Assembly (NCBI RefSeq): GCF_963675165.1
Contig: NC_087386.1
Location: 1,662,931 to 1,726,930 of the forward strand
DNA length: 64,000 bases
Source: Halichondria panicea
Taxonomy: Eukaryota; Porifera; Demospongiae; Suberitida; Halichondriidae
Direction of reading: 5' to 3'
The notes beneath the pieces are model-generated. The model was not told the DNA's origin. It was given only the letters and a program-made list of their open reading frames with translations, and made no database searches. How positions within the stretch are numbered: position 1 is the stretch's first letter; every line of letters starts with the position of its first letter. Positions 3,351 through 51,693 of the stretch are shown here, one piece after another. A program made the translations under genes and the position numbers.

Positions 3351-5629
3351 ATGGCAGCTTGTTGTGGATGGCCTATGATTTTTATTGTTCTGTTCTCATT
3401 GTCAGCCATCACTGAACATTGCAATGCTCAGTTATGCAGCCAAACAGGTGACCACTAGATCTATAGAATAGACTTCTACATTCTAGTTTGTTGCATTTTA
3501 AAATGATAATGTTGTATACAGTAACACTATGCGTATGTAGAACTAAGTCAATGTGTTCCTTATATACAGTGTCTCCAACAAAGTACATTGCTTTTCCAAC
3601 TCTCTACAATGGCGTAGTTGTCCTCAGCCCTTCAATTTGTGAAACAGTGTTAAGTGGTACCCTCTTTCGCTGTGACTATGCTCACGTTCTAGGAGATGGA
3701 GCAATGGTTCCCTCTACTCCTGATCTCAGCAACTCAATGTATTTGGGGCAATTTGTTGCTTGGGAAAGAGGTTCTGCGACCCCTTATATTGACTTTGACC
3801 TCACTACAGCAACGACTGGAATTACGACTATTGAGCTCAGTTTCTTGAACAGTCCGTCCAGTAGAATCAGTTTGCCAGACATTGAACTATCGAGAGTAAC
3901 ATATGTACTACCATCTTTTGCTACAGACACAGAATCTTCTATTGCCAGCAGAGTTTTGAACAATCAAAATTTAGCTCTAACAGATAATCAAGTCAGAACT
4001 GTTTTTGTTCGACCAGTGTTCACACAAGCTTCTCTCAACCTCCGAATCAGTTTTCAGTTCGATACCCATGATTTTGACTGGCTCCTACTCAATGAAGTAC
4101 GATTTTGTACAGATCCACAACCAAGTTTCAGGCCAGTTGTTATGTTCCTAGCACCGTTGTCCAATGTTATCCAACCTAGTGCAGAGGACCTGACAAGAGG
4201 ATCAACAGAGTTAGTGTGCACTGTTTCCAGTGAAGGATCGTACACATGGCAGTGGGAGAGAGATAATGTTATGATAGGGAATAATGGCGACTACACAATC
4301 ACCATTGGAGACGGAAGTAGAACAACTAAGCTGATGATCAGTAATCTAGACTTTAGTGATGCTGCTGAATATGAATGTACGGGAACAATAGTGGATTTAT
4401 CGAACGTACTGTCTACAAATTCATCAATACAAGACCTTCGATTTCCAGGTATAACAAACCATGCATGGTACACCAAAGATCAAAGACTTCACTTGTACCA
4501 ATACACTATAGCCCTTGGCAGGAGCCCATAAATAAGAGAAGAAGCGGCTAACTTCAACGTACACTCAGGGATCACGTTTTGTAATTACCTGTTTCCTTTT
4601 ATGGAAGCGACTAAGTGCTTGCAAACCGCAGCCCTGTATACGTGTAAGGATTCAACCACTTAGTGACTCTGCATATATAGAAATGCGATCATAGCCACTT
4701 ACAAAACGTGATCCCCATAGTCAGCCGCTCTTTCTCTTAATTATGGGCTCTGCCCTTGGTATGGCTGATGCCAGTGGTAGAGCCATATATGCGGTGGTAA
4801 CAGCAATTTATGGACAGAAACATTTATTTACACACCACAATTACAATTGTCACTGATAATTTCTCTATTCCCCACAGAGCGTGTGATCACTGCACCTAAT
4901 GTCAGAGGATATCTACAGACTAGAGAGGTTACTCTGACCTGTGAGCTCCATGGTTACCAGTCATCACCCTCTCCTCCTGTGTGGTTCGACTCGGGTGGCA
5001 GTGAAATAAATACCACTACAAAATACACCATCACTTCTGGTGACGGAGAGAACATAATTGTCCTTGAGAATGGCACTGCTATCCCTAGTGTGATTGTTAG
5101 CCTTACAATTCATTGTCTTTCATCAGCTGATGAAGGTACCTACACATGTCGTGGTGTCAGAGGAGAGAGTATCACTCAACTTGTGATTATAAATGGTACA
5201 GCCCCTTCTACTACTCCACCCCCTACAACGATAAACGGAGGTGAGTTTAGTAATAGTTATACTATCATACTCTTCCCATCACACTATCCACCATCACAGG
5301 TAACAGTTATCATTTTTACAGATGACGAGCAACCTACTTCAACCACTGTTATTGTTCTGCTACCTGCTGGTACTGTTTACGCTTTAGTGGCAGTCATAAT
5401 CGTATTATTGATAGCTTTGGTTGCTTTCATCATTTTGATTTTGTACCTTCTTTGGAAGATTAAGATTCTCTCAGCTCGTTTATCAGCGCCCATTCAAACA
5501 GACATTCCACTATCAGCTCCAATGCAAGACAGGGAACACACTTCACCTTCTGGGAATGTGACGTATGAAGAGATTGCTGAAAGAACTGAAATGAAGTTAA
5601 AAACTAACGAAAGTTATGTAGTTATGTAG
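3351..5629 (+). CDS. receptor A1: discoidin-like + 2 Ig, single-pass, ITIM-like tail, no kinase
   Basis: Four exons, 3351-3447, 3570-4448, 4878-5240 and 5322-5629, all joined in phase 1, give an intact 548-residue protein. Residues 1-27 are a signal peptide (MAACCGWPMIFIVLFSLSA). Residues 33-210 form a galactose-binding/discoidin-like domain ending in DFDWLLLNEVRFC. Two Ig domains follow: about 215-325, with LVCTV...Y.W.W...DAAEYECTG, and about 326-430, with LTCEL...DEGTYTCRG. A Thr/Pro stalk leads to a TM segment at about 463-490 (VAVIIVLLIALVAFIILILY). The 58-residue tail has VTYEEI (Tyr528), which fits the ITIM pattern [SIVL]xYxx[IVL], and ends in YVVM (Tyr545), a YxxM motif of the kind bound by PI3K p85. 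No kinase domain is present. The ectodomain is nearly identical to A2, A3 and the receptor kinase at 46141-51693. Role as an inhibitory or decoy partner is inference. Confidence 0.85.
4511..4760. repeat. foldback (MITE-like) element in intron 2 of receptor A1
   Basis: Two arms face each other. The left arm begins near 4517 (ggcaggagcccataaataag) and continues through 'ggatcacgttttgtaa'. The right arm begins near 4695 with 'ttacaaaacgtgatcc' and ends near 4753 with 'gggctctgccc'. They are imperfect reverse complements of about 60 bp. No reading frame inside. The target-site duplication was not clear. The other A-type genes lack it in this intron, which explains the longer A1 intron. Confidence 0.65.
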
Positions 5630-5982
5630 TTATGTTATGTCTATGTGTGCAGACATCTCAAGATGTTATTGAAAGTTCTCAGTACGAGCTCGAGATCGTT
5701 GGTTTAGCCTAAGTAAACATAGACATGCAGTTGTTAAACTTATATGTTTTTAGTAGACTACATGACTACAAGTGAGGGAAAAAATGTGACTGCACTACTA
5801 GATTTAGAGATTGAAAAGGACAACAAGAAGAGCTCAACACTTCACTCTCTTTTAGGTTTTAGGCTTAACGACCATTAATTTGGGAACCCATTTACAGGGA
5901 TTTGAGGTGTTCTTGCAACTGTAATGTCGAGAGCGGAAGTATGAGGTGCCGTTTGTGTCAAAACTATGTAAAAGTGAGACAT

Positions 5983-6960: not shown

Positions 6961-6964
6961 ATGT

Positions 6965-7156
6965 CAGTGGAGGATGTGTGCTTTTCAGGGTGTGGTTTTG
7001 TTACATTACAAGTGGTAGTCACATGATAACCTGCCACATGGTCCACAAGAATGGCTGAAGCAGTGGAGGATGTGTGCTTTTCAGGGTGTGGTTTTGTTAC
7101 ATTACAAGTGGTAGTCACATGATAACCTGCCACATGGTCCACAAGAATGGCTGAAG
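6965..7156. repeat. 96-bp direct tandem duplication at the start of the transposase gene
   Basis: 6965-7060 and 7061-7156 are essentially identical, each ending in atggctgaag. The right end of the transposon has a single matching copy in the opposite orientation (about 11427-11525). The frame opened by the first ATG (7051) closes quickly. The second ATG (7147) opens the coding frame. Confidence 0.85.
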
Positions 7157-8526
7157 GTGTGAATGTTGGAGTGTTGTCTAGTGCCCTGGCTGTTTCAATT
7201 CAGCAAGCAGTTAGCAGTGGTCAGTTACAGTTACCTCAAGTGCCAATAAGTGGTGCCAACCAGAGTCCCATTAGTGACAGGTCAGTGACAGACTCTAGCA
7301 GAAAGTTTACCATACCGGCGGTATTACCATTACCCTATGGTAAACACCACGTACTTCAGTTTCCATAATTATACACGGGCAAGTCCCTTGTCACGAGGTC
7401 CACTGTTACCATTGACGAAATACTGGAAATACGATCACTTCATTACAAATGGAATAAAATTGCGTCTATCTTGGGAATATCAAGAGCAACTTTGTACAGA
7501 CGATTAGAAGAAAATGGAAGATCCTCACAGGATGGGTCGATGTTGGATGATAATGAGCTAGATGATGTGATCAGTGGTATAAAAAGAGATCACCCGAATG
7601 ATGGGGAACGACTTGTCTGCGGCCACTTAAGAGCAAGGGGATTAAAAGTTCCTCGGCAAGCTGTCAGGGATTCCATTCATTGAACTGATCACGAAAATGT
7701 CATTGCGCGTCGCTGTACTGTTGTTAGACGCCGTGTGTACAGTGCCCCTCACCCAAATTATGTGTGGCACATTGATGGCCATCATAAACTTATAAGGTGG
7801 CGTTTTGTGATCCATGGTTCAATTGACGGCTTCTCCCGCACTATCATTTATGTGGCATGCACCGACAACAATCGTTCAGAAACTGTTCTCCAGCTCTTCA
7901 CTGACAGTATCAGGCACTATGGTGTCCCTAACCATGTGAGATCAGATCACGGTGGAGAAAATGTGGAGGTATGGCGGTACATGATTGCTGCACACAATAA
8001 TGATTACAGTTGTGTAATCACCGGGAGTTCTGTGCACAATGAAAGAATTGAGAGACTCTGGCGTGACGTTCATAGATGTGTTGGTTCCGTGTTTTCCCAA
8101 ATCTTCCGATCTTTAGAAAGTGATGGACTTCTTGACCCCTTAAATGAAGTGGATCTTTACTGTTTGCATCTGATCTTCCTGCCACGAATAAACAAATGTA
8201 TTTCAGGTTTCGTAGATAGTTGGAATCATCATCCTTTATCTACTGAAGGCAATCGAACTCCATACCAACTTTTTTTTGAAGGTATGCTGCAAACAAGCGA
8301 GCAAGAACTTGGTACTACAGCTAATGTGGACACTTCTGATGTTGAAGGAGAACGTGTATCAGTGCCAAGAATTAAGTTTATACCATGCTCAATTTTAAAA
8401 CAAAGTTTCCAAACTATAAATCCCCTTGAAGAAGCAGAAGATAATGGTAGAGGACTCTTTGTCGACGTACTTCATACTACAGGACAGTATCTTAATGCTA
8501 CTTGCTCACAATGTATTTGGATGTAA
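7147..8526 (+). pseudogene. integrase-type DDE transposase of the 6 kb DNA transposon (broken)
   Basis: The reading runs in separate open stretches: 7147-7368 (N-terminal piece shared with the HECT gene), 7471-7683 (helix-turn-helix-like, MGISRATLYRRLEENGRSS) and 7735-8526 (catalytic part). The catalytic part has the integrase-core pattern: Asp in YVWHIDGHHKLIRWRF, Asp in HVRSDHGGENVEVW and Glu in HNERIERLWRDVHR, followed by FLPRINKCISGFVDSWNHHP. These resemble the integrase-like transposases common in cnidarian and fish genomes. Some gaps could be introns, but at least one break between the helix-turn-helix and catalytic parts is an in-frame stop, so I call the copy broken. Confidence 0.7.
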
Positions 8527-8675
8527 TATTCAATTATTATAATTATGATAAGAATGAATGAAAGAATGAATAAATAAATGAAAAAGGAATGAATAATGTG
8601 ATGATGAATGAATGAATGAACACAATGAAGTAATACAGCAGCTAAAATGTCAAAGTTGGAACTGTTATATACTAA
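8527..8675. other. gap between the convergent transposase and HECT genes
   Basis: An A-rich stretch of imperfect repeats of 'aatgaatgaa' type (8550-8630). It separates the two stop codons by about 150 bp. No other feature seen. Confidence 0.6.
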
Positions 8676-11446: not shown

Positions 11447-11526
11447 GTGGCAGGTTATGTAACAGTCATGTGACTATCACTTGTAATGTAACAAAACCAC
11501 ATCCTGAAAAGCACACATCCTCCACT

Positions 11527-12758: not shown

Positions 12759-15566
12759 ATGGCAGCTTGTTGTGGATGGTCTATGATTTTTACTGTTCTA
12801 TTCTCATTGTCAGCCATCACTGAACATTGTAATGCTCAGTTATGCAGCCAAACAGGTGACCACTAGAATATACCTCTAGCTGGTACATTGTAGCTTGTTG
12901 CATTTTAAAATGATAATGTTGTATACACCTTATGCGTAAACCTTGTATGTAGAACTAAGTCAATGTGCTTACTTATATACAGTGTCTCCATTGAACTACC
13001 TTGCTTTTCCAACTCTCTACAATAACGTAGTTGTCCTCAGCCCTTCAATTTGTGAATTTGTGTCAAGTGGTACCCTCTTTCGCTGTGACTATGCTCACGT
13101 TCTAGGAGATGGAGCAATGGTTCCCTCTACTCCTGACCTCAGCAACTCAATGTATTTGGGGCAATTTGTCGCTTGGGAAAGAGATTCTATGTCCCCTTAT
13201 ATTGACTTTGACCTCACTACAGCAACGACTGGGATTACTGCTATTGAAATCAGTTTCCTAAACAGTCCGTCCAGTAGAATCAGTTTGCCAGACATTGAAA
13301 TTTCAAGAGTAACGTATGGTTCATCTTTTGCTACAGACACAGTAAATTCTTTCCAAGCAGACTTGTTGACAATCAAGATTTAGCTCAAATGGATAATCAA
13401 GTCAGAACTGTTTTTGTTCGACCAGCGTTCGCACAAGCCTTTCTCAACCTCCGAATCAGTTTTCAGTTCAACAGCTTCCATGATTTTGACTGGCTCCTAC
13501 TCAATGAAGTACGATTTTGTACAGATCCACAACCAAGATTCAGGCCAGTTGTTATGTTCCTAGCACCGTTGTCCAATGTTATCCAACCTAGTGCGGCTGA
13601 CCTGACAAGAGGATCAACAGAGTTAGTGTGCACTGTTTCCAGTGAAGGATCGTACACATGGCAGTGGGAGAGAGACAATGTTATGATAGACAATAATAGG
13701 GACTACACAATCACCATTGGAGACGGAAGCAGAACAACTAAGTTGATGATCAATAATCTAGACTTTAGTGATGCTGCTGAATATGAATGTACAGGAACAA
13801 CAGTGGATTTATCGAACGTACCGTCTACAAACTCATCAATACAAGACCTTCAATTTCCAGGTAAGTAGATATTATTGTAAAACTTGTTTATTGTAAATCA
13901 TTTCTCTATTCGGTTTCCCCGCAGAGTTTATCTCTGCGCCTGATGTCAGTGAATATCTACAGACTGGAGAGGTTACCCTGACCTGTGAGCTCCATGGTTA
14001 CCAGTCATCACTCTCTCCTCCTGTGTGGCTGGACTTGGGTGGCAGTGAAATAACTACCACTACAAAATACACCATCACTTCTGATGAAGGATCGAAAACA
14101 ATTGTCTTTGAGAATGGCACTGCTATCCCTAGTGTGATTATCAGCCTTACAATTCGAAATCTATCATTAGCTGATGGAGGTACCTACACGTGTCGTGGTG
14201 TCAGAGGAGGGGAGAGTGTCACTCAACTTGTGATTGCAGAACAGACAGCCCCTCCCACTACACAGCCCACCACTCCCTCAATAAACGAAGGTGAGTTCAA
14301 TTAATTATCTACATAATTGCCTCACACGAAATCAACTTTCATGAGATCAACTCCCACGAGATCAATTCTTACCAGAGCAACTATCGTGATAAGCGCCACT
14401 GAACTGATCAACCTGTTAAACTACTATAATTTATGGTATGTAATGAATCTCGTGCCAACTATGTAATCCTATAGGCCCTCTAATAACCAACACCCACTCA
14501 AGTCAATGGCCCACACTTTAAAGGTGCTGTTTCAAATTCTTACCCATGCAGCCGTACAGCCTGTAGTACCGAACAGCAGTATAATGGCAGCTGCAAAAAT
14601 TCAACCAACAGGCATCCGGATTGAGTACATCCAACCAAAACAAAGATTCAGAGCTACATGCATGTTTGTAGCTACATCTCGGCCATAGAGACGCAGAATA
14701 AAAGAAAAGAATCCATACAAATACTGTTTGACTGCTTCAACACATGAGGCATGACTCTGAAGAGTATATTTATTTTACCAACCATCAAGCATCTTAACTG
14801 TAAAATTTGTAAGTGTAACGTTTTTTTGTAAAACTGAGTTAATTGATTATAATTATCTTATGAAAAGTTGACTCTATGAGAGTTGATCTACTAACAGTTG
14901 ACCTCATGCAAAGTTGCTCTGGTAAGAATTGATCTCGTGGGAGTTGATCTCATGAAAGTTGATCTCGTGTGCACCTACATCTACGTAATAGTGAAGCGTA
15001 ACATTTTGCGAGTATTTATTGCAATCCTCAATTTGGTAGATGATAAATAGCTATTGTTGTCCATGTCACTCTGTACTGCATGTACATTCTCTATTGCCCA
15101 TGCAGGAACTAACACACTCAGTACTGGCACAGGTGGGGAACAGACTACTGGAGACAATACTGGAGTGATTGCCGCTGCCGTGGTTGTGGTCCTCTTCATT
15201 GTTATCATACTAGTGGCCATTCTTGTCATTGCTTTATTTGTTTATATCCGATTTCGAGACAACAAAAATAATCATACTGATGATCCTATGTACGACTACC
15301 CAGATGAGCTTCCACCTCCTCCACTACCACAACCCAGGACCAATCAGATTCAAGTAACTACCATTTATGAGACAATAATGGATACTACCAACCCAGCATA
15401 TGGTCTAACACTATCAGCAAGTGCAGGCATCTCTGTTGATACCAATAATGCCTATGGTATGGTTAAAGACACTCGTACTACAGCTACTAATTCAACTCAG
15501 CAACAAAATGAAACACCTCCTGCTACCAACCCAACCTTTAGTGACTTTGAAGTTGCCTATATATAA
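12759..15566 (+). CDS. receptor A2: discoidin-like + 2 Ig, ITSM/NPxY tail, no kinase (one frameshift)
   Basis: Exons 12759-12855, 12983-13860, 13925-14290 and 15106-15566, same borders and phases as A1. Signal peptide MAACCGWSMIFTVLFSLSA, discoidin-like domain, two Ig domains (AEYECTG and GGTYTCRG). Exon 2 is one base short: a T run near 13350-13352 has three Ts where the kinase copy has four. This shifts the frame in the discoidin domain, and a sequencing slip or a real mutation are both possible. The last exon is not the A1 type. Its stalk and TM (VIAAAVVVVLFIVIILVAIL) match RTK-A almost exactly, followed by a unique 85-residue tail. The tail has PMYDYPDELPPPPLP, TIYETI (TxYxx[VI], ITSM-like), NPAYGL (NPxY) and ends VAYI. 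No kinase. Confidence 0.7.
14319..14972. mobile_element. foldback DNA element in intron 3 of receptor A2
   Basis: Arms: left 14325-14378 (cacacgaaatcaactttcat...) and right 14912-14970 (...gaaagttgatctcgtgtg), about 55 bp and nearly complementary, including 'gaattgatctcgtgggagtt' and its mirror. Each arm contains an internal short repeat (gatcaact). The roughly 530-bp centre has no open frame that I recognise. A clear target duplication was not found. It accounts for the enlarged intron compared with the other A genes. Confidence 0.75.
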
Positions 15567-16485: not shown

Positions 16486-18437
16486 ATGGCAGCTTGTTGT
16501 GGATGGTCTATGATTTTTATTGTTCTGTTCTCCTTGTCAACCATCACTGAACATTGCAATGCTCAGTTATGTAGCCAAACAGGTGACCACTAGAAATAGA
16601 CCTCTAGCTGGTGCATTGTATTGTTGCATTTTAAAATGAAGATGTTGTATACACCTTATGCGTAAACCTTGTATGTACAATTAAGTTAATGTGTTTTTAC
16701 TTATTTTAGTGTTTTTACTTATTTACGTTACTCTTGATTACGTTTACGTATTTACGTTACTCTTATTATAGTGTCTCCAATGAACTACATCGCATTTCCA
16801 AGTATCTACAACAGTGCAGTTGTCCTCAGACCACTTATTTGTGAAACAGTGTTAAGTGGTACCCTCTTTCGCTGTGACTATGCTCATGTTCTAGGAGATG
16901 GAGCAATGGTTCCCTCTACTCCTGATCTCAGCAACTCAATGTATTTGGGGCAATTTGTTGCTTGGGAAAGAGGTTCTGCGACCCCTTATATTGACTTTGA
17001 CCTCACTACAGCAACGACTGGGATTACGGCTATTGAGCTCAGTTTCTGGAACAGTCCTTCCAATAGAATCAGTTTTACCAGACATTGAACTCTCAAGAGT
17101 AACGTATGATCCATCTTTTGCTACAGACACAGAATCTTCTATTGCCAGCAGAGTTTTGAACAATCAAAATTTAGCTCTAACAGATAATCAAGTCAGAACT
17201 GTTTTTGTTCGATCAGGTTTTGCACAAGCTTCTCTCAACCTCCGAATCAGTTTTCAGTTCAATAGATTCCATGATTTTTACTGGCTCCTACTCAATGAAG
17301 TGCGATTTTGTACAGACACACAGCCATTTTTCAGGCCAGTTGTTATGTTCCTAGTACCGTTGTCCAATGTTATCCAACCTAGTGCGGGTGATCTGAGAAG
17401 AGGATCAACAGAGTTAGTGTGCACTGTTTCCAGTGAAGGATCGTACACATGGCAGTGGGAGAGAGATAATGTTATGATAGGGAATAATGGCGACTACACA
17501 GTCACCATTGGAGACGGAAGTAGAACAACTAAGTTGACGATCAACAAACTAGACTTTAATGATACTGCTGAATATGAATGTACGGGAACAACAGTGGATT
17601 TATCGAACATAATGTATATACATTTTTTCATCCAAGACCTTCAATTTCCAGGTATGTGGATAATAATTTGTTCTTTGTAAATCATTCTATGCCCCACAGA
17701 AATTATTATTACTGCACCTGATGCTAATAGATATCTACGTTACTCTGACCTGTGAGCTCCATGGTTACCAGTCATCACTCTCTCCTCCTGTGTGGTTGGA
17801 CTTGGGTGGCAGTGAAATAACCGCATCTACAAAATACATGTACACCATCACTTCTGGTGAAGGAGGGAACACAATTGTCTTTGAGAATGGCACTGCTATC
17901 CCTAGTGTGATTGTCAGCCTTACAATTCGAGATCTATCGTTAGATGATGGAGGGAACTACACGTGTCGTGGTGTCAGAAGAGGAGAGAGTGTCACTCAAC
18001 TTGTGATCAAAGGTAGTACAGCCTCTCCCACTACACATCCCCCTACCACTCCCTCAATAAACGGAGGTGTACTTAGTATTGTTATGGTGGAGTAAAATAG
18101 ACTTTCCATCACACCATCTCCTGAAAGTAACCCATAATAATATCAAAACCACAATTATCAGTTTTTCATACCTACAGATGGCGAGCAACCTACTTCAACC
18201 TCTGATATTGTTCTGCTACCTGTTGGTACTGTGTATGCTTTAGTGGCAGTCATAATCGTATTATTGATAGCTTTGGTTGCTTACAGCATCTCGGTCCTGT
18301 ACCTTCTTTGGAAGATCAAGATTCTCTCAGCTCGTTTATCAGCGCCCACTCAAGCAAACATACCACTATTTGCTCCAATGCAGGACAGGGAACATACTTC
18401 ATCTTCTGTGAATGAAGACACCTCAAGATGTTATTGA
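16486..18437 (+). pseudogene. receptor A3: decayed kinase-less copy of A1
   Basis: Exons 16486-16582, 16772-17651, 17700-18066 and 18178-18437 match A1. Exon 2 has one extra base near 17074. Exon 3 lacks 11 bases near 17738 (the 'agactggagag' present in the others), so the second Ig domain is out of frame and meets a stop. The donor after exon 3 is gtgtac rather than gtgagt. A conserved aspartate in the discoidin motif is changed (FYWLLLNEVRF instead of FDWLLL). In the last exon the TM is intact (VAVIIVLLIALVAY), but a deletion removes the ITIM and YxxM region, leaving a tail that ends DTSRCY. With two frame disruptions plus the tail deletion it is most likely not functional. Confidence 0.8.
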
Positions 18438-36011: not shown

Positions 36012-39000
36012 ATGGGCTGGTTATGGAGATGCTCCCACCTCCTGATTCTCTGTGTACTGCTCATCTTCCAACTAACAACTCTGAGCAATTCTCTGTGTAG
36101 TCCAACTGGTGAGTGGATTCTTGTGTGTGTATTGCACTAAATGACACTGTGTGCATTTCTTTCTTCAGATAGGAGATGGTCACAGTACACGATTACCCCA
36201 CCCCCCAGTGACTTTGAGGGACAGAGCACAGCAGGTGATTGTACTGGCATGCCTACTGCCACATGTATAGGACCATTGTTTGGAGGTCGTGATAGAATAG
36301 CTAATGGAGACGTGGGCCTACCAGCTCTTGATGATGGTACCTTTGTTGGCCATGCTTGGGATCAGACTGTCAGTATCACATTCACTCTTGTTCCTATGGA
36401 CACTGCATACGTGGAGGGACTCAATCTCTACTTCTACAACATTCCCTCTCGAAGAATTGGACTACCTTACAATATCAGAATAACCTCACCATCTAGACCT
36501 AGTGACCATCCATATCAACTAGAGGGTAATGATGACTTGACCCTGGATGATAATGGACTACGAAGTGTCACCCTTATCCCAGAATCACTCTCTTTTACTT
36601 CTTCCATGAATACCATCACAATTATGTTTGAATTCACTAACACTGAACAGATCGACTGGCTTCTCTTGACTGAGGTGGAGATCTGCACATCAGAGTCAGG
36701 TACAGGCAATATACAATGAATGTTCAAGACTGTATACCTTACAAATTTCCACCCCTCTAGCCATAACCCTCCCCAACCCTCCTTCCATCACCTTCACCCC
36801 GGACACTGTGGGGACCATCTCCCCACCCACCATCAACTCCTCACTCAGCCTGACCTGCTCTGTCACTGAGGGGCGGTTTGACTGGACCTGGACTCGGCTT
36901 ACTGGTGACACCCTCCCTCCAGCACGAGTACTCAATGCTGGGAGGACTAGTGTTCTGGAGCTATCACAACTCAGCAGTAATGATGCCGATACCTACCGAT
37001 GTCTGGCCACTCACACAGTCGGAACATTTGGAACACCGGTGTCAAATAGCGTTGATATCACCCTCTTACTTCCAGGTAATTATGATAGAGGGCTATATCA
37101 CTAAGCTTTCTATTAAAAGTACAGCATAGAGCAACATACTGATTGTGTGGTATTATGTGATGTGCACTGTGTTTAATGTCTCCTATCTTTGCTGCAGGTA
37201 CTATACAAGCTGAGAATGGAATGATTCAAGTTACAGCCAGTGATGACAGTGCGGTGCTGAGGTGCTTTCTCTCTGGCTACCTTCCTTCAATGGCTGTTCC
37301 TTCAATAATTTGGCGACTATCTAACAATGAACTATCCAATGACTTAGTTAATACCATCACGTCCGAGCAAGGAGACATGTTTATTCAGAATGGAAGTGCA
37401 CAACCTATACCAAGTTTGACCAGCACACTGACTGTGAATCTGACAAGAGATCCACTTACGACTAGCACCCGAATTTACAATTGTATATCGAGCAGCCAGA
37501 CGGTCACCCCCCTCGTGCAAACAATTGTCTTGAGTGAGTGCAGCATACTGTATCCACATGTAGTTGTATACTGGGGTCAGAGCATTTGTCTGATGGTACC
37601 TACTTCAATGTAATAATAGCCCATGGGAAGCTGATATTTTTGGTGGCTAGATTACATGTACCGTATAGCCTGTAAAATTAAAGCTTCACGAAAATGCTTT
37701 TGGAACAGTTTTTGCGAATTTAATTTTTGCGAAATAGCAGCATGCATGCGATATTAAATTCGTGGGTATAAAATGTTCGCGGTATATGCTTAATCAGCGA
37801 AAACCACAAACATTTGTACCCTCGAAATATACCCGCTATATATACAGTGTATTCTCTGCACATCCACTCAATTTTTACTTATATGTATCTACACATAGTT
37901 TTCACTCTCATAATATTATTATTGTCCTCTCCCCACACATACAGCCTCTGATGTTATCAATCCTCCTCCTGTTGTCAATCCTCCTGTCAATACTACTACC
38001 CCATCTCCCAACCCTCCTATCACTCCTGAGTCAAGCCAAGGGTTGATTATCGGAGTCATTGTTACCGTCATTATACTCTTGATCATCATCATTGCCTTTG
38101 TCATTGTTATCATTATTTTCGTTAAAAGGAGAGGTCAAAGATCAGATGCGTTTGTGGAAGACTATGACTATGACAACAAGGGGGGACCACTCTATCAGGA
38201 AGTGATATTGAAACCCCGCCCTCCCCCATTGCCTGCACATTTCCCACCGTCCCCCCCAGCCTCAGTAATCGGACCATACGCTGTCACCGAAAATGGTGTG
38301 GACTCGGGAAATTTTGAACTGACACAAATAAATGGAGGAGATCGTAATTCCTGCTACGCTGAGATAGGCAACCCAAAACCACGACGACTCAAAAATGAAC
38401 CGAAATTTCTACAAGACAATCCCCTGTATGCTTCGGCCGATAATCTAGATAGAAGTCTCGATGCTCCTAATTTGCCTCACAGACGATTTGCTAGTGTCAG
38501 TTCAATGGACGATGTCTCCAACAGCACTCATGGCAGTATACTCAATATATACGCTACACCGTTTAAAATTGCACCCCCTGTCCCGCAAAGACCACCCACT
38601 CCGCAACTATTTGATGGCAATGTGTACAGCGAAGCTCTCTCACCATCCATGATGGTAACAGACAAGAGATACTCTACACCTCCTGGGTTGGGCACTGAAG
38701 AGTCTTGTCCTGCTTCATCCATTTACGCTGATCCACAACCATTGTTGAGATCCGAGGGCCCAATCGAGGTAGCCCCTTCGCAAGTTCGAGAGATTCGAGG
38801 GCTTGGTGTCGGGCAATTTGGACAAGTTGTGTTGGCTGAGACTGTGGGTTTGAGTTTGAAGGATTTGAAATTAAGCGAACACAACAATGATCGAAATATC
38901 ACCATCCAAGTGGCCATCAAGAGACTAAAACCTGATGCTGACGAAGGAATCAAAGAGGCTTTCGAGAAAGAGATCAAATTCATGTCTCGTTTAAACCATA

Positions 39001-39644
39001 AAAATGTTGTGCGGCTACTTGGTATTTGCCCGTATGGAACTGCCTTTATCCTTATGGAATATATGGAGAATGGAGATCTCAATCAATACCTTCACAAACA
39101 CTCTGAAGAAGATAATGAGAAGCCACTATCGAAAGAAGCGCTGGTCTACATAGCCACTCAGATCTCGGGTGGAATGATGTATCTCGCCACTCTCAAGTTT
39201 ATCCATCGTGACCTGGCCACGAGAAATTGTCTGGTAGGTAGCAACAACGAGGTCAAAATTGCTGATTTTGGTATGAGCAGAAGTCTGTATTCTTCCTACT
39301 ACTATCGCATTCGTGGTAGAGCTATGTTACCTATTCGCTGGATGGCCAACGAGTGCTTTTACGGACGATTCTCAGAGAAAACTGACATATGGGCTTTCGG
39401 AGTCGCCATGTGGGAGATATTCACTTTCTGTAGTCAGCAACCGTACGATGAAATGACCGATCAAGAGGTCATCGACGATGCCATTCGAGGGGCAGAACGA
39501 ACACTTTTGGAGCGACCGGATTATTGTCCCCCTGAGGTATACGAAGTGATGCTGCGATGCTGGGAGGACGATCCCGAGTCAAGAGCTAACTTTGAAGAAG
39601 TACATTCTTCTCTGAACGCTATATATGAGCAAAGTGATCTCTGA
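36012..39644 (+). CDS. RTK-B1: DDR-like receptor tyrosine kinase with discoidin-like + 2 Ig ectodomain
   Basis: Exons 36012-36108, 36169-36699, 36761-37075, 37198-37533 and 37945-39644, all phase 1, give 992 residues. Signal peptide MGWLWRCSHLLILCVLLIF. Galactose-binding/discoidin-like domain about 33-210, ending IDWLLLTEVEIC. Ig 1 about 211-315 (LTCSV...DADTYRCLA), Ig-like 2 about 316-425. TM about 460-487. The juxtamembrane region of about 215 residues holds many tyrosines (NPLYASADN, IYATPF, VYSEAL). Kinase about 705-985: GVGQFGQVVLA, VAIKRLK (Lys), HRDLATRN, DFGMSRSLY, activation loop YYYRIRGRAMLPIRWMANE. The closest known family is discoidin-domain receptors (DDR1/2): same HRDLATRNCLVG, FGMSR, YYR..GRA.LPIRWM and a spacer before the VAIK lysine. 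DDRs bind collagen. The ligand here is unknown. Confidence 0.93.
37659..37851. repeat. foldback MITE, copy 2 of 4, intron 4 of RTK-B1
   Basis: Begins taccgtatagcctgtaaaat and ends acccgctatatatacagtgta. The inner part has tgcatgcgatattaaattcg and cttaatcagcgaaaacca. Copy 3 sits at the same place in RTK-B2, so this insertion predates the B1/B2 duplication. Confidence 0.8.
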
Positions 39645-42249
39645 TGTGTGTGTATGTATGTAAAGCTGTTAGGAAGTATAAAGTATACGTATATAATGTG
39701 CTGTATTTTTTTTATTAGTCCAGTGGTGTGCTTCCATTTATTTTCCATGGATCAAGCTATATTGTGTATGTTCAATATGATACTGCATTTTATTGTTGTA
39801 AAAAACATTTGCATTGTTATTTGGTATTAATGGCCTTGGCAATTAGTCAGGAAATGTACACATAACAAATGATGGCATTACCACACAATCCTGAGCTAGC
39901 TAGCTGGGGCTTAACTAAACTACTAGCCGGCACATGTACAGAAACTCAGTTATGGTGAGTATAGGGGGGGGGCTATAGAATTGAGAACAATTATTATTGT
40001 ACTGCTAACTGTGAATAAATTGACTGAATAGCTCTGTTCCATGTTGTATTGTATATAATTATTGTATACTGAGCAATAAGTATTAACCATTGTGTGTGTA
40101 TTGTATTGAGTCTACTCCGAGTATGTTGAGAGTTGTAGGAATCAAGAGCATGTCCTATGTTTAGTGTGTGCATGCAGTGTACGTATACAATCTAGTTATC
40201 TGTATAATCACAATAATTATGAATACAGACGATATCAAGCTAGTCAGTCATTCCGCCAGGGTGCAGCTCACGTGAAATTTATTTGCACAATGACCATCAT
40301 TTGTTATGAAGAATCTGGGCAGAGACAGCGAACAATAGTAGCAAAAGTTATACTCCTTTTTCTCACTAATTCTAACTTTTTTACTTGCTGTCTGTTGTTG
40401 AAATGTACTGTCTATCATAAAAGAACATGGATTTGAAGTCTTAATTAATGGTAAAATTCGTGTTGGCTAAGTGGCTGTGATCCCAAACAGCCCCAGATCA
40501 AGGTTGAACAAGAGGGTATTGTCTTACACTGACCCAACACTGAGCGATAACCATGATCTGGAACAACTTCAATTCTAGGTATGTTGTACATATAATTTAT
40601 TATTGTTGTGCAAGTATGCGAATAGGTGAATGTTGTGAAAAAAGTTTATACTTGTACAAATAGGAATGTGTATTAGCTTAGTGGTTTAATATACCACTTT
40701 CTACATATGTAGCTATTAAAATAGAAAATCTTAGTCCTCTGTGTCGAGTAGCTTGATAATGGAGTAGCTTAATTGATAACTGTTCAACTTTTTCATTGAG
40801 ACTAGGCCCAAACACCCAATCCATTAGTTCGTCCACCTCTTCGCCTTCCATTGTAACACTCTTCAAGACTTACTTCCATGCAACATTACGTCATCTGTGA
40901 CTGCACTTGCTGTGTTTGTTGTATGTTTTTTATTTCGTTAAAATTAAAGGGAGCCATCCATTTTTCTTCTAAATTTTTCCGATTTCTAAACTGTTAAATT
41001 CCTCAATTGTACGTAGTAGTGTTAACACTATTGGGTTCTCTATGGAGTGGCTCTAGGACACTAAGTTTTCTTTGTTCCCGTAGCAGCCTACTTATAGCTA
41101 GAACAAAGTTAGTGTTAGGCCTAAGGGTGCCGTACTTCTTAACTTTGCAACTGTACATATGACCTAATTGTGAACTAATGGCCTAAAAGACACATGGCAA
41201 TGGTTAGCTCCGTTGTTTGTGAAAGTGAAACACAAACACTCAAGTCTATCTCTACTCTGTTGGATGCAAGCAGAATATAATAATTATATCGTGAACTGTA
41301 GAGAGTGAGGGTCACCTCGTTTCTCAGAAATTACAGTTTTAATCACGGCATTGTTCACATACAATATTAACAATACTCTACAATTCTTTATCCTCATTGG
41401 AGTTGATTAACGTCACAATGTTTTTGTCTGTGCTCGTTACTTTTTGTTGGTGTAAGATTGACAAATGAAATTTGTAGCAACTCATGTAAACCTTGTCTGT
41501 ATCCTTACTATTACCGTCAAATCCAGTTTTGTCAGTGAGGTGTTCAATTTCAAAGGGGTTAGGGCAAGACCTAGCATTTATACGTTTAATGGACACATTA
41601 CATGATACACAATTTGTTTGCGTTGGTGAAGAGTAGTGATAGAGCATGAAGTAATGGTGCTTGCAGAGTGGTATGGGATTGTTAATAATATTGTCAGCGG
41701 CATTGAGTCCAGTTGTGTGGCTAGTGCTGATCGAAATATTTCCATTGATATCGGTTTGCTTGATGCAAATGCTTTAGCTTTGCATTCATGTATTACACAT
41801 TCTCCTCTTTACCTTTCACTTTCTCCCATCTAGGTGTGAAATCGGGGTCAGATCCAACTCGTCCAATGTCTCGTCTAGATGCCTGGCAAACGGGTGCATC
41901 TGGAGCTATCAGTAGAGATGTGGTGATTACAAGTGTAGAAAAAAGAGCATGAATATATAATGAGCAAAACCACAAACCACAAACAATTAAGACAGGAAGT
42001 TCATCTTCCTTTGCAAATAAAATACTGATAGGCATCCGGTCACGCTGGCGGAATGACTGTAGTGTCACAGTATATACACTGTTGAATACTCATCTCATTG
42101 CTTTCACTATTAGCACCTTGTCCTATGTTGACCCTCCATTATATCATAGCATTCCAATAAAGCCCTGTCAGTCTGATAATTATAACCTTTGCCAGATTCA
42201 TTATGCGTATAAAATGCTTGTCCCTTAAACCTGACTCACGACTATACAG
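39645..42249. other. spacer and first intron of RTK-B2, with unassigned minus-strand reading frames
   Basis: Starts with B1's 3' flank and the ATG exon at 39952. On the minus strand three coding-looking pieces occur: about 41830-41910 (APDAPVCQASRRDIGRV, with GT and AG borders), 41395-41720 (cysteine/histidine-rich: CKHHYFMLYHYSS, CVSCNV, VYMSCYKFHLSIL) and 40690-40866 (MEGEEVDELMDWVFGPSLNE). I do not recognise the family. The Cys/His pattern suggests a zinc-binding, possibly transposon-derived protein. They are not joined into one frame with confidence. Confidence 0.35.
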
Positions 42250-45200
42250 ATAGACTGGCTATGGAGATGCTCCCACCTCCTGACTCTCTCTCTACTGCTC
42301 ATCCTCCAACTAACAACTCCGGGCAATTCTATGTGTAGTCCAACTGGTGAGCGTACGCTTATGTGTGTATTGCACTGTGACACTATGCATTTTCTTTCTA
42401 CAGACAGGAGATGGACACAGTACTTGGTTAGCCCACTCCCCAGTGACTTTGGGGGACAGAGTACACTGGGTGATTGTACATTAAATGGACGGTGTCTTGG
42501 ACCATTGTTTGGACTAGCTAGAGATAGACTAGGTGATGGAGACTTGGGCCCACCAACGCTTGATGATGGTACTTTTGTTGGCCATGCTTGGGATCAGACT
42601 GTCAGTATCATATTTACTCTTACTACTACGGACACTGCATACGTGGAGGGACTCAATCTCTACTTCTACAACATTCCCTCTCGAAGAATTGGACTACCTT
42701 ACAATATCAGAATAACCTCACCATCTGGTGACCATCCATATCAACTGGAGGGTAATGATAACTTGACCCTGGATGATAATGGACGACGAAGTGTCACCCT
42801 TATCCCAGAATCACTCTCTTTGACTCCTACCAGTAATACCTTCACAATCATATTCGAATTTTCAGACACTGAACAGATCGACTGGCTTCTCTTGACTGAG
42901 GTGGAGATATGCACATCAGTATCAGGTACAGGCAATATACATAACTGTTAACAATGTACCTTACACATATTTCCACCCCTCCAGTTGTACTCCTCCCCAA
43001 CCCTCCTCCCATCAACTTCACCCCGGACACTGTGGGGACCATCTCCCCACCCACCATCAACTCCTCATTCAGCCTGACCTGCTCTGTCCCTGAGGGGCGG
43101 TTTGACTGGACCTGGACTCGGCTTACTGGTGACACCCTCCCTCCAGCACGAGTACTCAATGCTGGGAGGACTAGTGTTCTGGAGCTATCACAACTCAGCA
43201 GTAATGATGCCGATACCTACCGATGTCTGGCCACTCACACATTCGGAACATTTGAAACACCGGTGTCAAATAGCGTTGATATCACCCTCTTACTTCCAGG
43301 TAATTATGATAGAGGGACAGCATAGAGCAACAGCTATAATGATTGTGTGGTATTATGTGATGTGCAATGTGTTTAATGTCTCCTGCAGGTACTCTACAAG
43401 CTGAGAATGGAACGATTCAAGTTACAGCCAGTGATGACAGTGCATGCAGTGCTGAGGTGCTCTCTCTATGGCTACCTTTCTTCAATGGCTGTTCCTTCAA
43501 TTACTTGGCAATTATCTAACAATGAACTACTATCCGATGACTCCGTTAATACCATCACGTCCGAGCAAGGAGACATGTTTATTCAGAATGGAGGGGCACA
43601 ACCTATACCAAGTTTGATCAGCACACTGACTGTAAATCTGACAAGAGATCCACTTATGACTAGCCGATTTTACGGTTGTATCTCGAGCAGCCAGATGATC
43701 AAACTCCTCTTCCAAGTAATTGTTCTGAGTGAGTGCAGTATACTGTATCATGTATACTGGGATCAGAGCATTTGTCTGAATAATTATGATGGTAGCCTAC
43801 TTGGAAAACTCCAATGTAATAGCCCATGGGAAACTATAGTGACTAGATTTTCGGCCTCCATTAGATGTAGAGCAGTTACTATAACGGGTATATTTCGAGG
43901 GTATAAAGTTTCGCGTAAATGCCTTTAGAAAGGTTTTTGCAGATAGGAATAGCAGCCTTTTTGCAGCATGCATGCATGCGATATTAAATTCATGTTCACG
44001 GTACATGCTTAATCAGCGACAACCATGAACATTTGTACCCTCGAAATATGCCCGCTATATATACGGTGTATTCTCTGCATATCTTTATTTAGATGTATCT
44101 ACACATAGTTTTCACTCTCATATTATTGTCCTCTCTCCCCACACATACAGCCACTGATGTTGTTGATCCTACTGTTGTTGATCCTGAAGATCCTGGTATC
44201 ACTACTACCCCATCTTCCGACCCTCCTTCTCCCACTCTTGAGACTGGAGCACCCCTCGGGTTGATTATTGGAGTCATTGTTGCCCTCAATATTATAATTT
44301 TGATCGTCATCATTGCCATTGTCAGTGTTATCGTTAAAAGGAGAGGTCAAAGATCAGATGCGTTTGTGGAAAAGCCTGCACATTTCTCACCGTCTCCCCC
44401 AGCCTCAGTAATCGGACCAGACGCTGTCATCGAAAATGGTGTGGACTCGGTAAATTTCGAACTCACACAAATGTATGAAGATAGCAATTCCTACTACGCT
44501 GATATAGACAACCCAAAATCACAACGACTCAAAAATGCACCGAAATTTCTACAAGACAATTCCCTGTATGCCTCGGCCAATAATCTCGATAGAAGTCTCG
44601 ATGCTCCTAATTTGCCTCACAGACAATTTGCTAGTGTCAGTTCAATGGACGATGTCTCCAACAGCACTCATGGCAGTATACTCCATATATACGCTACACC
44701 GTTTAAAATTGCACCCCCTGTCCCGCAAAGACCACCCACTCCGCAACTATTTGATGGCAATGTGAACAGTGAAGCTCTCTCACCATCCATGATGGTAACA
44801 GACAAGAGATACTCTACACCTCCTGGACTGGGCACTAAAGAGTTTTGTCCTGCCTCATCCATTTACGCTGATCCACAACCGTTGTTGAGATCCGAGGGCC
44901 CAATCGAGGTAGCCCCTTCGCAAGTTCGTGAAATTCGAGGGCTTGGTGTCGGGCAATTTGGACAAGTTGTGTTGGCTGAGACTGTGGATTTGAGCTTGAA
45001 GGATTTGAAATTAAGCGAACATAACAATGATCGAAATATCACCATCCAAGTGGCCATCAAGAAACTAAAACCTGATGCTGACGAAGGAATCAAAGAGGCG
45101 TTCGAGAAAGAGATTAAATTCATGTCTCGTCTAAACCACAAAAATGTTGTGCGGCTACTTGGTATTTGCCCGTATGGAACTGCCTTTATCCTTATGGAAT

Positions 45201-45784
45201 ACATGGAGAATGGAGATCTCAATCAACACCTTCACAAACACTCTGAAGAAAAAAATGAGAAGCCACTGTCAAAAGAAGCGCTGGTCTACATAGCCACTCA
45301 GATCTCGGGTGGAATGATGTATCTCGCCACTTTTGAGTTCATCCATCGTGACCTAGCCACAAGAAATTGTCTGATAGGTAGCAACAACGAGGTCAAAATT
45401 GCTGATTTAGGTATGAGCAGAAGTCTGTATTCTTCCTACTACTATCGCATTCGTGGCAGAGCTATGTTACCTATTCGCTGGATGGCCAACGAGTGCTTTT
45501 ATAAACGATTTTCAGAGAAAACTGACATATGGGCTTTCGGAGTCACCATGTGGGAAATATTCACTTTCTGTAGTCAGCAACCGTACGATGAAATGACTGA
45601 TCAGGAGGTTATCGACGATGCCATTCGAGGGGCAGAACGAACACTTTTGGAGCGACCGGATTATTGTCCCCCCGAGGTGTACAAAGTGATGCTGCGATGC
45701 TGGGAGGACGATCCCGAGTCTAGAGCTAACTTTGAAGATGTACATTCTTCTCTGAATGCTATATATGAGCAAAGTGATCTCTGA
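39952..45784 (+). CDS. RTK-B2: tandem duplicate of RTK-B1, start codon in a separate exon, Ig 2 exon altered
   Basis: The copy of B1's signal exon (42250-42346) begins ATA instead of ATG. An upstream exon ending ATG|gtgagt (39952-39954) restores the start in phase 0: M+IDWLWRCSHLLTLSLLL. Further exons are 42404-42925, 42985-43299, 43389-43728 and 44151-45784. The Ig 2 exon is 4 bases longer than B1's, out of frame from about 43445, unless splicing uses the new acceptor tgcatgcag (43449), which re-enters frame as VLRCSLYGY. The kinase frame is open and complete with VAIKKLK and HRDLATRN, but has DLG for DFG (KIADLGMSR) and YKRFSEK for YGRFSEK. The juxtamembrane is shorter than in B1. It may be a functional variant or an early pseudogene. 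I lean to impaired. Confidence 0.7.
43877..44070. repeat. foldback MITE, copy 3 of 4, intron 4 of RTK-B2
   Basis: Starts near 'actataacgggtatatttcg', ends 'cccgctatatatacggtgta'. Same position and inner sequence as copy 2 in RTK-B1, with extra gcatgcatgcatgc in the centre. Confidence 0.8.
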
Positions 45785-48291: not shown

Positions 48292-51200
48292 GAGCAGAGA
48301 CATTGCACTTTCGTGTTGAGTGGTCTATTGGTGGTCTCTCTGTTCTCTTGCACATCAGCACAACGATGCACTCAAACTGGTAAGCAAATCACAATCACAG
48401 AAGTATAACTGCAGTACCTATTATATAATATTTCTTGTACTTTGCTTACAGTGTCTCCAACAAAGTACATTGCTTTTCCAACTGTCTACAATAACGTACT
48501 TGTCCTCAGACCTTCAATTTGTGAACCAGTGTTAAGTGGTACCCTCTTTCGCTGTGACTATGCTCACGTTCTAGGAGATGGAGCAATGGTTCCCTCTACT
48601 CCTGATCTCAGCAACTCAATGTATTTGGGGCAATTTGTCGCTTGGGAAAGAGGTTCTGCGTCCCCTTATATTGACTTTGACCTCACTACAGTAACGACTG
48701 GTGTTACGGCTATTGAGCTCAGTTTCTTGAACAGTCCTTCCAGTAGAATCAGTTTGCCAGACATTGAACTCTCGAGAGTAACATATGTACTACCATCTTT
48801 TGCTACAAACACAGTAAATTCTTTTCCAAGCAGACTTGTTGACAATCAAGATTTGGCCCAAACAGATAATCATGTCAGAACTGTTTTTATTCGACCACTT
48901 CTCTCACAAGCTTCTCTCAACCTTAGGATCAGTTTTCAGTTCGATACCTTCCATGATTTTGACTGGCTCCTACTCAATGAAGTACGATTCTGTACAGATC
49001 AACAACCAAGTTTCAGGCCAGTTGTTATGTTCCTAGCACCATTGTCCAATGTTATCCAACCTAGTGCGGCTGACCTGACAAGAGGATCAACAGAGTTAGT
49101 GTGCACTGTTTCCAGTGATGGACCGTACACATGGGAGTGGGAGAGAGACAATGTTACGATACAAAATAATGGGGACTACACAATCACCATTGGAGACGGA
49201 AGCAGAACAACTAAGTTGACAATCAACAATCTAGACTTTAGTGATGCTGCTGAATATAAATGTACGGGAACAACAGTGGATTTATCGATCGTACTGTCTA
49301 CAAACTCATCAATACAAGACCTTCAATTTCCTGGTAAGCAGATACTTATTGTAACGTGTTCTTTGTGAATCTCTTTCTTTCCCACAGAGTTTATCACTGC
49401 ACCTGATGTCAGTGGGTATCTACAGACTGGAGAGGTTACCCTGACTTGTGAGCTCCATGGTTACCAGTCATCACTCTCTCCTCCTATGTGGCTAGACTTT
49501 GGTGGCAGTGAAATAACTACCACTACAAAATACACCATCACTTCTGATGAAGGGTTGAAGACAATTGTCTTTGAGGATGGCACTACTAACCCTAGTGTGA
49601 TTGTCAGCCTTACAATTCGAGACCTATCGTTAGATGATGGAGGGAACTACACGTGTCGTGGTGTCAGAGGAGGAGAGAGTGTCACTCAACTTGTGATCAA
49701 AGGTGGTACAGCCCCTCCCACTACACTACCCCCCACTACACAGCCCCCCACCACTCCCTCAATAAACGGAGGTGAGCTCAATTAATGTCTAGTGGTGGAG
49801 CATTGTGAGCATATTTATTGCATTCCTTATTTTGCGAATATTATTATTCAATCCTCATTTTAGTATAGACGGTAAGTATATCAATTCCTATTGTTTTCCA
49901 TTCACTGTATTGATTGAAATGAACCTTTCTCTATTGCCCATGCAGGAACTAACACACTCAGTACTGGCACAGGTGGGGAAAAGTCTACTGGAGACAATAC
50001 TGGAGTGATTGCCGCTGCCGTGGTTGTGGTCCTCTTCATTGTCATCATACTAGTGGCCATTCTTGTCATTGTTTTATTTGTTTATATTCGAATTCGAGAC
50101 AAGAAGACAAACATTAGTCCTACGCCGCACGGTAACTCATACATAGAGGTGAATCCAAAGAGACGATTAACAAAAAATGACATTCAATGGCGGCTATCTG
50201 CAAGAGAGACAGAAGATTCTGATACGGCTCATATTTACAGTCTGATTGATAAAAACCGAGAAGAATCGTTGCCTCCAGTTCCCTCTCAGGATTTCGACGA
50301 GACAGATTTCAATCATATGGGATTTGAAAACGAGGACATCGAGGCAGTTGAGTACAATGAAATAGACCCGCAACCTGGACTAAAGGTCCCCAAGAGAAGA
50401 CCCACAAATTCTACCAAGCCCAAACTCGCAAAAATCACTAAAGTGGACTCCCAGAGCGCTTTGGACCATAATCCGATATACGAATCAACGTCTATTATTG
50501 GTAAAGCAGCCAAAATGAATGGGACCCTTGATACGAACCCGACGTATGCCCAACCTGATAGCTATCGTAACAGTTTCACGACAGTCAGTTCCACAAGTGA
50601 TGCAGAACCTCTGTATAGTGAAGCGATTGGACCCTCTCATTTCCTTAGCAGTAGCAGTCTCAAGAGCAGTACTGAGCCCGTGTACAGCGAAGCTTTGAAT
50701 CCAACCAATTTCAAACAAGACAAGTCGGAAAAGAGTGATAAAAATCTCCTACCGTACGGACCAGTTTATGCGTTGCCATTACAAGTGACGAAAGTGGACG
50801 AACCTCCTAGGATCACTCCTGATAATATTCACGAGACGAGCGAACTTGGCGTTGGTCAATTTGGAGAAGTAGTGTTAGCGGAAACTGTGGGCTTGAGTGA
50901 GAAAGACCTAAAGCTTGGTAGCAGCACTGACAAGAATGCACGGATCCTAGTAGCAGTGAAGAAGCTGAAAGATCAGGCCGATAGCTCCATGAAGGAATCG
51001 TTTGAGAAAGAGATTAAGTTCATGTCCGGTCTCTCCGATGAGAACATTGTTAGACTGTTGGCTGTGTGTGATAAGGAGCCAAAGTTTATTGTGATTGAGT
51101 ACATGGAAAACGGAGATATGTACCAGTATTTGAATCAACACGAACTTGCCCCTTCAATTGACGAAATGCAAGAAAACCAAATACCAGTTTCGATACTTCT

Positions 51201-51693
51201 GTATATGGGTGTTCAGATAGCCAGTGGAATGCGATATCTTGCTTCTCTTAAATACGTGCACAGAGATTTGGCTTCTAGAAACTGCCTTGTGGGCAAAAAC
51301 TTCATGGTGAAAATTTCCGATTTTGGCATGAGTCGCAGTCTGTACGAGTCAGTGTACTATCGAGTAAGAGGGAGAGCTATGCTTCCTATTCGCTGGATGG
51401 CTATGGAAAGTTTCTTTGGGAGATTCTCTGAGAAGACAGACGTCTGGTCATTTGGTATCACACTGTGGGAGATATTCACTATGGGGAGATTCCAACCTTA
51501 CGAGGAACTGGATGATCAGGATATCATACAGGATGCAGTTCGAAACAAGCAACGTAAACTACTACCGAAGCCCGAGGCATGCCCTGAGGATGTGTACCGT
51601 GTGATGCTTAGATGCTGGGAGTACAAACTTGAAAATCGAGCTACATTCGCAGAAATCTTTAACTCTTTGTCAGAAATTCAACAAAACATGTAG
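46141..51693 (+). CDS. RTK-A: DDR-like receptor kinase with the same ectodomain as A1-A3
   Basis: Exon 1 ends with the start codon itself (46141-46143, ATG|gtgagt). It joins in phase 0 to the signal exon 48292-48379, giving MEQRHCTFVLSGLLVVSLFS. Then 48452-49333, 49388-49771 and 49946-51693, all phase 1, for a total of 1034 residues, intact. The discoidin-like domain (DFDWLLLNEVRFC) and two Ig domains (AAEYKCTG, GGNYTCRG) are nearly the same as A1-A3, while signal peptide and tail differ. TM about 472-500 matches A2. The juxtamembrane has NPIYES, NPTYAQ, LYSEAI and VYSEAL. Kinase about 745-1030: GVGQFGEVVLA, VAVKKLK, HRDLASRN, DFGMSRSLYESVYYRVRGRA, LPIRWMAMES. It is the kinase-bearing member of the A set and lies about 30 kb from the kinase-less ones. 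Confidence 0.9.

Follow-up and report, generated by a model that had tools for sequence, protein, structure and literature searches.

Receptor ectodomains shared between DDR-like kinase and kinase-less forms in a linked gene family of the sponge Halichondria panicea

Genome analysis of the sponge Halichondria panicea revealed a set of receptor genes in which several ectodomain types occur in two forms on one chromosome, namely ahead of a DDR-like kinase or ahead of a transmembrane (TM) segment with a short tail carrying tyrosine motifs. The stretch under study, here called the window, comprises 64,000 nucleotides (C10:1662931-1726930, with C10 standing for contig NC_087386.1) of a genome of 131.5 Mb in 39 contigs. 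All results refer to this one assembly; gene models were obtained with our own splice-aware script, and copy counts vary with similarity thresholds. Two properties of paired receptors were found, i.e., ectodomains nearly identical between genes whose tails differ and close genetic linkage, and a kinase-armed paired-receptor complex is the best reading of the sequences, which we hold with moderate confidence. By analogy with such pairs, we infer that the tails may also be opposite, giving opposite outputs on one ligand. An initial annotation of the window had proposed a paired set of three kinase-less receptors (A1, A2, and A3) and one receptor tyrosine kinase (RTK-A), located as follows:

3351..5629, + strand: A1, intact, kinase-less, 548 amino acids, four exons
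12983..15566, + strand: exons 2-4 of A2, kinase-less, frameshifted and mosaic, with exon 1 immediately upstream
16501..18437, + strand: A3, kinase-less pseudogene
48452..51693, + strand: exons 2-4 of RTK-A, A1-like ectodomain followed by a DDR-like tyrosine kinase

The exons of A1 (3351-3447, 3570-4448, 4878-5240, and 5322-5629) encode a signal peptide, a discoidin-like domain of about 180 residues, two immunoglobulin (Ig) domains, a TM segment, and the short tail VTYEEI...NESYVVM. The gene model of RTK-A begins at exon 2 (48452-49333, 49388-49771, and 49946-51693), and its kinase displays the expected catalytic motifs VAVKKL, HRDLASRN, and DFGMSR. Ectodomain sharing between A1 and RTK-A proved to be real: the peptides quoted in the initial annotation were present, and exon 2 (coding for the first domain and Ig1) was 87% identical over 294 residues (E 1.2e-169). 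As also claimed, the two tails differ, with a short YEEI tail in A1 and a tyrosine kinase in RTK-A. Only A1 is intact among the three kinase-less genes in the present assembly, so that the count of three kinase-less receptors held for A1 and failed for A2 and A3. A2 carries a deletion of 1 nt in its discoidin-like exon (exon 2) at about window position 13351, and A3 an insertion of 1 nt in exon 2 (about 17075) together with a frame-changing deletion of 11 nt in the Ig2 exon and a deletion in the tail that removes both tyrosine motifs. Based on the frameshifts in A2 and A3, three working genes could be ruled out. The deletion in A2, a small event in one assembly, may be a sequencing error; small frame damage of this kind is common across the wider A-type family. 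A short insert with inverted ends was seen by eye at window positions 4450-4790, in the intron between exons 2 and 3 of A1.

The shared-ectodomain pattern is neither due to chance nor limited to the window. A genome search with exon 2 of A1 resulted in 69 matches, of which 68 fell on C10. Outside the window, 36 kinase-less A-type copies (one without a tail match) were located at C10:1.786-1.873 Mb and eight kinase-bearing copies at C10:1.912-1.940 Mb, which together with A1-A3 and RTK-A gives a total of 48, counted from the stretches read. Outliers were found on C10 (196 kb) and C6 (6.15 Mb). The linked group of genes that combine like ectodomains with different tails is thus far larger than had been claimed, as it includes these 36 and eight further copies as well as five ectodomain types (see below). 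Splice-aware modelling resulted in intact models for 13 of the 39 kinase-less copies, while exons 2-4 were open in seven of the nine A-type RTKs. The signal-peptide exon was near-identical among many genes of both arrays.

Comparison of kinase and kinase-less genes showed where this similarity ends. For A1 and RTK-A, the DNA alignment was confined to exon 2 (92.4% identity) and exon 3 (83.7%), and exon 1, the introns, and exon 4 gave no alignment. A single recent whole-gene duplication of RTK-A was therefore rejected, as introns and outer exons fail to align. A2 resembles RTK-A through the TM segment to about window position 15265, and from about 15260 onwards it matches the tail found in an Ig-Ig receptor family nearby; judged by this junction, the A2 tail is not an independent invention and was taken from that family. 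Both the alignment limits of A1 and RTK-A and the mosaic junction of A2 point to cassette exchange rather than simple recent duplication. The arrays displayed the same kind of boundary: kinase-less copies k12, k19, and k28 were 84-86% identical to RTK46 or RTK51 over an alignment starting at the signal exon and ending at one junction within the TM segment, and the alignment of k20 and k29 with RTK46/RTK51 ended after Ig2. The kinase of RTK44 was 94-96% identical to those of RTK45, RTK46, RTK48, and RTK51 (73% to the truncated RTK50), whereas its ectodomain shared only 66-68% (discoidin-like domain) and 62-68% (Ig1) with these four RTKs and as much as 92% and 89%, respectively, with the kinase-less copy k23. 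Altogether, the alignments show the exons for the discoidin-like and the two Ig domains behaving as an exchangeable cassette ahead of either tail.

A tree was calculated from exon 2 of those A-type copies, 23 out of 48, in which this exon is open and near-complete; a small number of the 23 are broken elsewhere. Kinase and kinase-less forms were intermixed, and the starred branches force at least four changes of tail type. Constraining the RTKs to one clade was rejected by the approximately unbiased (AU) test, with p values of 9.5e-06 for all seven RTKs and 7.4e-76 for the six array RTKs. The tail label was barely more clustered on the tree than shuffled labels, with 75 and 83 of 500 shuffles as low.

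The kinase-less tails themselves revealed a conserved signature. From the A-type family, 37 tails were extracted and 34 aligned; 33 of these carried YEE and 33 the motif NE[AS]Y[VM], while 31 displayed [VILS]xYEE[IL] and hence agreed with the formula [SIVL]xYxx[IVL] of the immunoreceptor tyrosine-based inhibitory motif (ITIM). The pattern YE[EV][IV]-x7-L-x2-N-x2-Y gave 35 matches in 454,890 codon positions in six frames of C10 sequence, all in tails of the A-type family, compared with one match in 9,097,680 positions of a codon-shuffled control, which gauges rarity and is not a blind test, as the pattern was composed after inspection of the tails.

Related tails were also detected on other contigs. 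At C6:6153333-6162300, an off-chromosome discoidin-like-Ig copy (56% identical to A1) was followed kilobases downstream by two TM-tail frames with DYEVI...N[RQ]SY, both keeping the 17-residue spacing between tyrosines. Receptors on C1 carried the signature with this spacing as well, combined with a different ectodomain of Ig-, FN3-, or Sushi-like type; the first C1 receptor exon gave no match in Pfam. Among the best 150 of 306 candidates for a TM segment with the tail VYEEV...NQAY, one lay on C7 and all others on C1 (11.25-14.93 Mb), where the loci read harbored FN3- and Sushi-like exons and form a megabase-scale kinase-less repertoire with the same tail signature. A kinase array at C1:15.5-17.4 Mb, with at least 26 kinase matches among those listed, was considered as a partner of these receptors and dropped, since the two copies read look by eye like cytosolic death-domain kinases, and the frames read contained no receptor part.

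For the ITIM-like tail proposed in the initial annotation, the outcome was mixed. VTYEEI of A1 fits the ITIM expression, but the element that recurs across families is YEE[IVL] followed by NxxY, and the C1 and C6 tails read as well as the B-type tail (see below) depart from the ITIM formula at residue -2 or +3. YEE[IVL] with NxxY is equally suited to SH2 and PTB docking, and pYEEI is also a ligand of Src-type SH2 domains. Taken on their sequence, the tails are possible ITIMs and the label is only partly justified. With regard to potential readers of such tails, two SH2 domains and one phosphatase were matched in order on one strand at C3:8404573-8406287, and two SH2 domains and a kinase at C9:5255365-5259157, making these loci candidates for an SHP-like (tandem-SH2 phosphatase) and a Syk-like (tandem-SH2 kinase) gene, respectively.

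Rates of codon change differed along the receptors. In one and the same set of five array RTKs, the ratio of nonsynonymous to synonymous substitution rates (dN/dS) was 0.15 for the kinase, 0.60 for the discoidin-like domain, 0.49 for Ig1, and 0.44 for Ig2; measured in this way, the ectodomain changes faster than the kinase. Between A1 and RTK-A, the values were 0.65 for the discoidin-like domain, 0.38 for Ig1, and 0.77 for Ig2, with changes too few to prove constraint on A1 alone. Within the kinase-less tails, the ratio of nonsynonymous to synonymous differences (pN/pS) was 0.19 and 0.04 for the two tyrosine motifs versus 0.77 for the remaining tail (33 tails tabulated, of which the 32 array tails entered the ratio; A3 excluded).

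Four further RTKs in the window represent three additional ectodomain types:

36141..39644, + strand: RTK-B1, B-type ectodomain with kinase
42235..45784, + strand: RTK-B2, second B-type kinase receptor
53619..56221, + strand: RTK-C, C-type ectodomain with kinase
57629..60904, + strand: RTK-D, D-type ectodomain with kinase, a single open reading frame of 1091 amino acids

Each of these types also occurs without a kinase match. Three more B-type ectodomain copies were found outside the window at C10:1.5618, 1.5732, and 1.6148 Mb (range 1.56-1.615 Mb), two of them with a B-type TM match nearby, within open frames of only 145 or 167 residues. Ten C-type copies lay at C10:1.312-1.346 Mb, and four D-type copies at C10:1.317-1.345 Mb, with open frames of 438, 356, and 447 residues and one of 179 residues that has a stop, compared to 1091 in RTK-D. 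No kinase match was located at the B-, C-, and D-type partner stretches among the matches listed (kinase search, best 129 of 1749 candidates scored). The B-type tail read contained NSNEAY, VYEEP, and DYEEL, and the C-type and D-type tails, one read of each, contained KTNQAY, NPSY, and a terminal LVYEEI or VVYEEI. The E (Ig-Ig) type comprised eight kinase-less loci at C10:1.635-1.663 Mb, which gave no full-length model and in one of which the Ig exon contains a stop and is broken, and one RTK at C10:1.7286-1.7313 Mb; NPAY was present in seven of the eight E-type frames read, with YET motifs in place of YEE. For each of the five RTK ectodomain types tested (A-E), C10 thus also harbors partners lacking a kinase match, a sixth RTK (C10:1.7319-1.7339 Mb) lying outside the test set. 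Types A, B, and E are located within C10:1.56-1.94 Mb and the C- and D-type partners at C10:1.31-1.35 Mb.

Within C10:1.312-1.346 Mb, the kinase-less C and D genes are interspersed, every D standing straight after a C. This order echoes the neighbouring RTK-C and RTK-D of the window and suggests block duplication. On C4 (0.33-0.48 Mb), Ig-like domains resembling the RTK-C ectodomain (31-43% identity) alternate with domains of tyrosine phosphatases, found 2-4 kb further downstream, and it looks as though receptor phosphatases, too, carried an RTK-C-like ectodomain. Apart from receptors, the window harbors transposon-like open reading frames between A1 and A2 (7369-8526), with matches to a helix-turn-helix and to an integrase core (PF24764, E 4.1e-79). 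FAD-binding matches were obtained for one exon (19171-19713) of an unrelated gene, presumably MICAL-like, that separates A1-A3 from the RTK genes.

Domain searches bore out the DDR-like kinase of the initial annotation, as in PDB the kinase domain of RTK-A matched DDR2 and DDR1 best (E 3.3e-84); the assignment is based on these best matches and not on a kinase tree. The discoidin-like domain gave no significant match in Pfam or PDB, a profile-versus-PDB search included, and PF21114 (DDR1-2_DS-like) matched weakly in two of ten members (best E 0.07). An AlphaFold model of A1 exon 2, calculated from an alignment of eight window sequences, had a mean pLDDT of 43 and supports no fold claim. Regarding the Ig domains, Ig1-Ig2 of the kinase-less copy k22 aligned over its full length with PDB entry 8ovq, "Cell recognition molecule, long form" (phmmer, E 3.5e-16), and also matched 8qpx, "Receptor tyrosine kinase (Fragment)" (E 4.8e-16). 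Titin scored as well as these two (E 2.6e-16 summed over several stretches), and antibody chains scored close by for Ig1. The same entries, 8ovq and 8qpx, were the best two PDB matches of the Ig-Ig family (E 7.9e-15 and 7.4e-14). We take 8qpx and 8ovq to be the RTK and the long form of the sponge adhesion molecule (SAM) of Geodia cydonium, so that Geodia presumably has both kinase and kinase-less forms, judging from the PDB names. Kinship with the sponge RTK/SAM Ig-receptor family is likely based on the two homologous Ig domains, with titin and antibody chains near in score.

Several results weigh against a functional paired-receptor complex. No intact model was obtained for 26 of the 39 kinase-less copies, which are frameshifted, stopped, truncated, or unspliceable, and two of the nine A-type RTKs are broken; RTK50 is truncated in the kinase and k23 is doubtful due to an extra base in the TM exon, so that 12 of 39 kinase-less copies and six of nine RTKs remain after setting these two aside. 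Dependence on single tails is a further point, as the B-, C-, and D-type kinase-less tails number one each and were assigned to their genes by position (B, C) or by a shared frame (D). Ectodomain dN/dS stays below 1, and codons under positive selection (P of at least 0.9) amounted to only 6 of 190 in the discoidin-like domain, 3 of 118 in Ig1, and 6 of 132 in Ig2, compared to 24, 28, and 24 codons, respectively, under negative selection; these sites, from a home-made grid analysis run with no correction for recombination, are weak evidence. Finally, whole-tail dN/dS was alike in intact-modelled (0.56, n=12) and broken copies (0.54, n=21, A3 included), from which we conclude that breakage of the kinase-less copies is probably recent or that the distinction is invisible at such depth. 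This equality, the share of copies lacking an intact model, and the broken A2 and A3 would all be expected if the kinase-less genes were a by-product of tandem RTK duplication, i.e., degenerating or decoy copies without the kinase exon that share their ectodomains through gene conversion. We regard this explanation as unlikely, since the tail motifs are preserved in 33 of the 34 aligned tails at the low pN/pS given above, a signature of related form is also seen on, or close to, other ectodomains, and the same split is seen in five separate ectodomain types. By its own account, the initial annotation would be overturned if duplication had taken place very recently and selection were relaxed in every kinase-less copy. 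This does not describe A1, whose introns, exon 1, and exon 4 cannot be aligned with RTK-A, nor does it agree with the pN/pS of the motifs in the array tails, but it may describe many of the other copies, given how many lack an intact model.

Two other explanations were considered. One is a family of matrix or adhesion receptors, DDR-like or SAM-like, that diversified outside immunity and whose kinase-less forms are adhesion molecules with a matrix ligand in common with the RTKs. Both the proximity of the kinase to DDR2/DDR1 in PDB and the full-length alignment of k22 with 8ovq, equalled in sum by titin, would suit it; yet no collagen-binding discoidin domain was detected in the Pfam and PDB searches, and a family with tens of diverging copies in tandem and a high turnover of pseudogenes is more usual for a recognition repertoire, which makes the matrix explanation rather doubtful. 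The other is a true inhibitory/activating pairing, in which the kinase-less tails are ITIMs that recruit an SHP-like phosphatase and counteract the RTK arm directly. It draws on the agreement of 31 of the 34 A-type tails with the formula, the YEEI ends of the C- and D-type tails, and the aligned SH2 and phosphatase matches on C3, and is confronted with the deviating C1, C6, and B-type motifs and with the double role of pYEEI as an Src-type ligand, so that we consider it possible but would not expect it.

For the paired-receptor complex itself, the following mode of action may be proposed. Both forms would recognise one ligand, or ligands that overlap, on an adjacent cell or a microbe. The kinase form would signal on its own, while the kinase-less form would co-cluster and become phosphorylated by the RTK or by an Src-type kinase. 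Its phosphorylated tail could then recruit SH2 or PTB proteins (Src-like, Syk-like, or SHP-like) and modulate or oppose the kinase signal, and the response would be set by the balance of both forms on a cell. Recognition of self/non-self or of microbes seems the likeliest use of such a complex, with allorecognition specifically as one possibility.

Comparison with known systems revealed partial likeness in each case. The RTK/SAM family of Geodia resembles the present one in its two homologous Ig domains and, in this genome, in the presence of kinase and kinase-less forms; the Ig domains of the Geodia RTK are reportedly polymorphic and shared by adhesion molecules. Unlike in Geodia, type A has an additional N-terminal domain; the genes also form a multigene complex with known map positions, their ectodomain cassettes are exchanged, and the kinase-less arm bears a tyrosine tail that is conserved. 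After grafting, Ig-bearing RTKs and adhesion molecules of sponges were upregulated according to part of a review (PMC2248247), which is the only, and an indirect, link to allorecognition. With respect to DDR1/DDR2, the kinase domain is alike, whereas the ectodomain is not recognised as discoidin, Ig domains are present, and the genes form a multicopy array. The Alr genes of Hydractinia are a clustered Ig-superfamily family with 41 members (PMC11999971, in part), for which ITIM/ITAM-like motifs are reported (PMC12065747, in part); a kinase arm is not mentioned for Alr in the portions of text available, while half of the pair described here is an RTK. Fester co-receptors of the Botryllus fuhc locus combine ITIM, hemITAM, or core tyrosine motifs on linked receptors at one locus (same review, in part), but their domains differ, and "tyrosine kinase" gives 0 matches in PMC12065747. 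Vertebrate receptors of the FcR/KIR type share like extracellular regions with differing signalling parts, birth-and-death evolution, and domain shuffling, and couple via a TM module to the FcR-gamma subunit, as stated in sections of PMC2413239, while one arm bears its own kinase here. Among the titles and abstract openings listed in searches of open-licence PMC papers, none described a paired-receptor or RTK cluster of this kind in a sponge.

Five RTK types with kinase-less partners, traded cassettes, and YEE[IVL]/NxxY tails shared by types A-D might together form a self/non-self recognition complex, an idea we put forward tentatively. The mechanisms of invertebrate allorecognition are called "a complete mystery" in the part of the review PMC12065747 available, where candidate proteins are described as without conservation among sponges, cnidarians, and ascidians. 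A linked set of kinase and kinase-less receptors with fast turnover offers a concrete and testable candidate for allorecognition. If true, it would mean that receptor tyrosine kinases, in place of adaptor-coupled receptors, can serve as the basis of paired-receptor logic.

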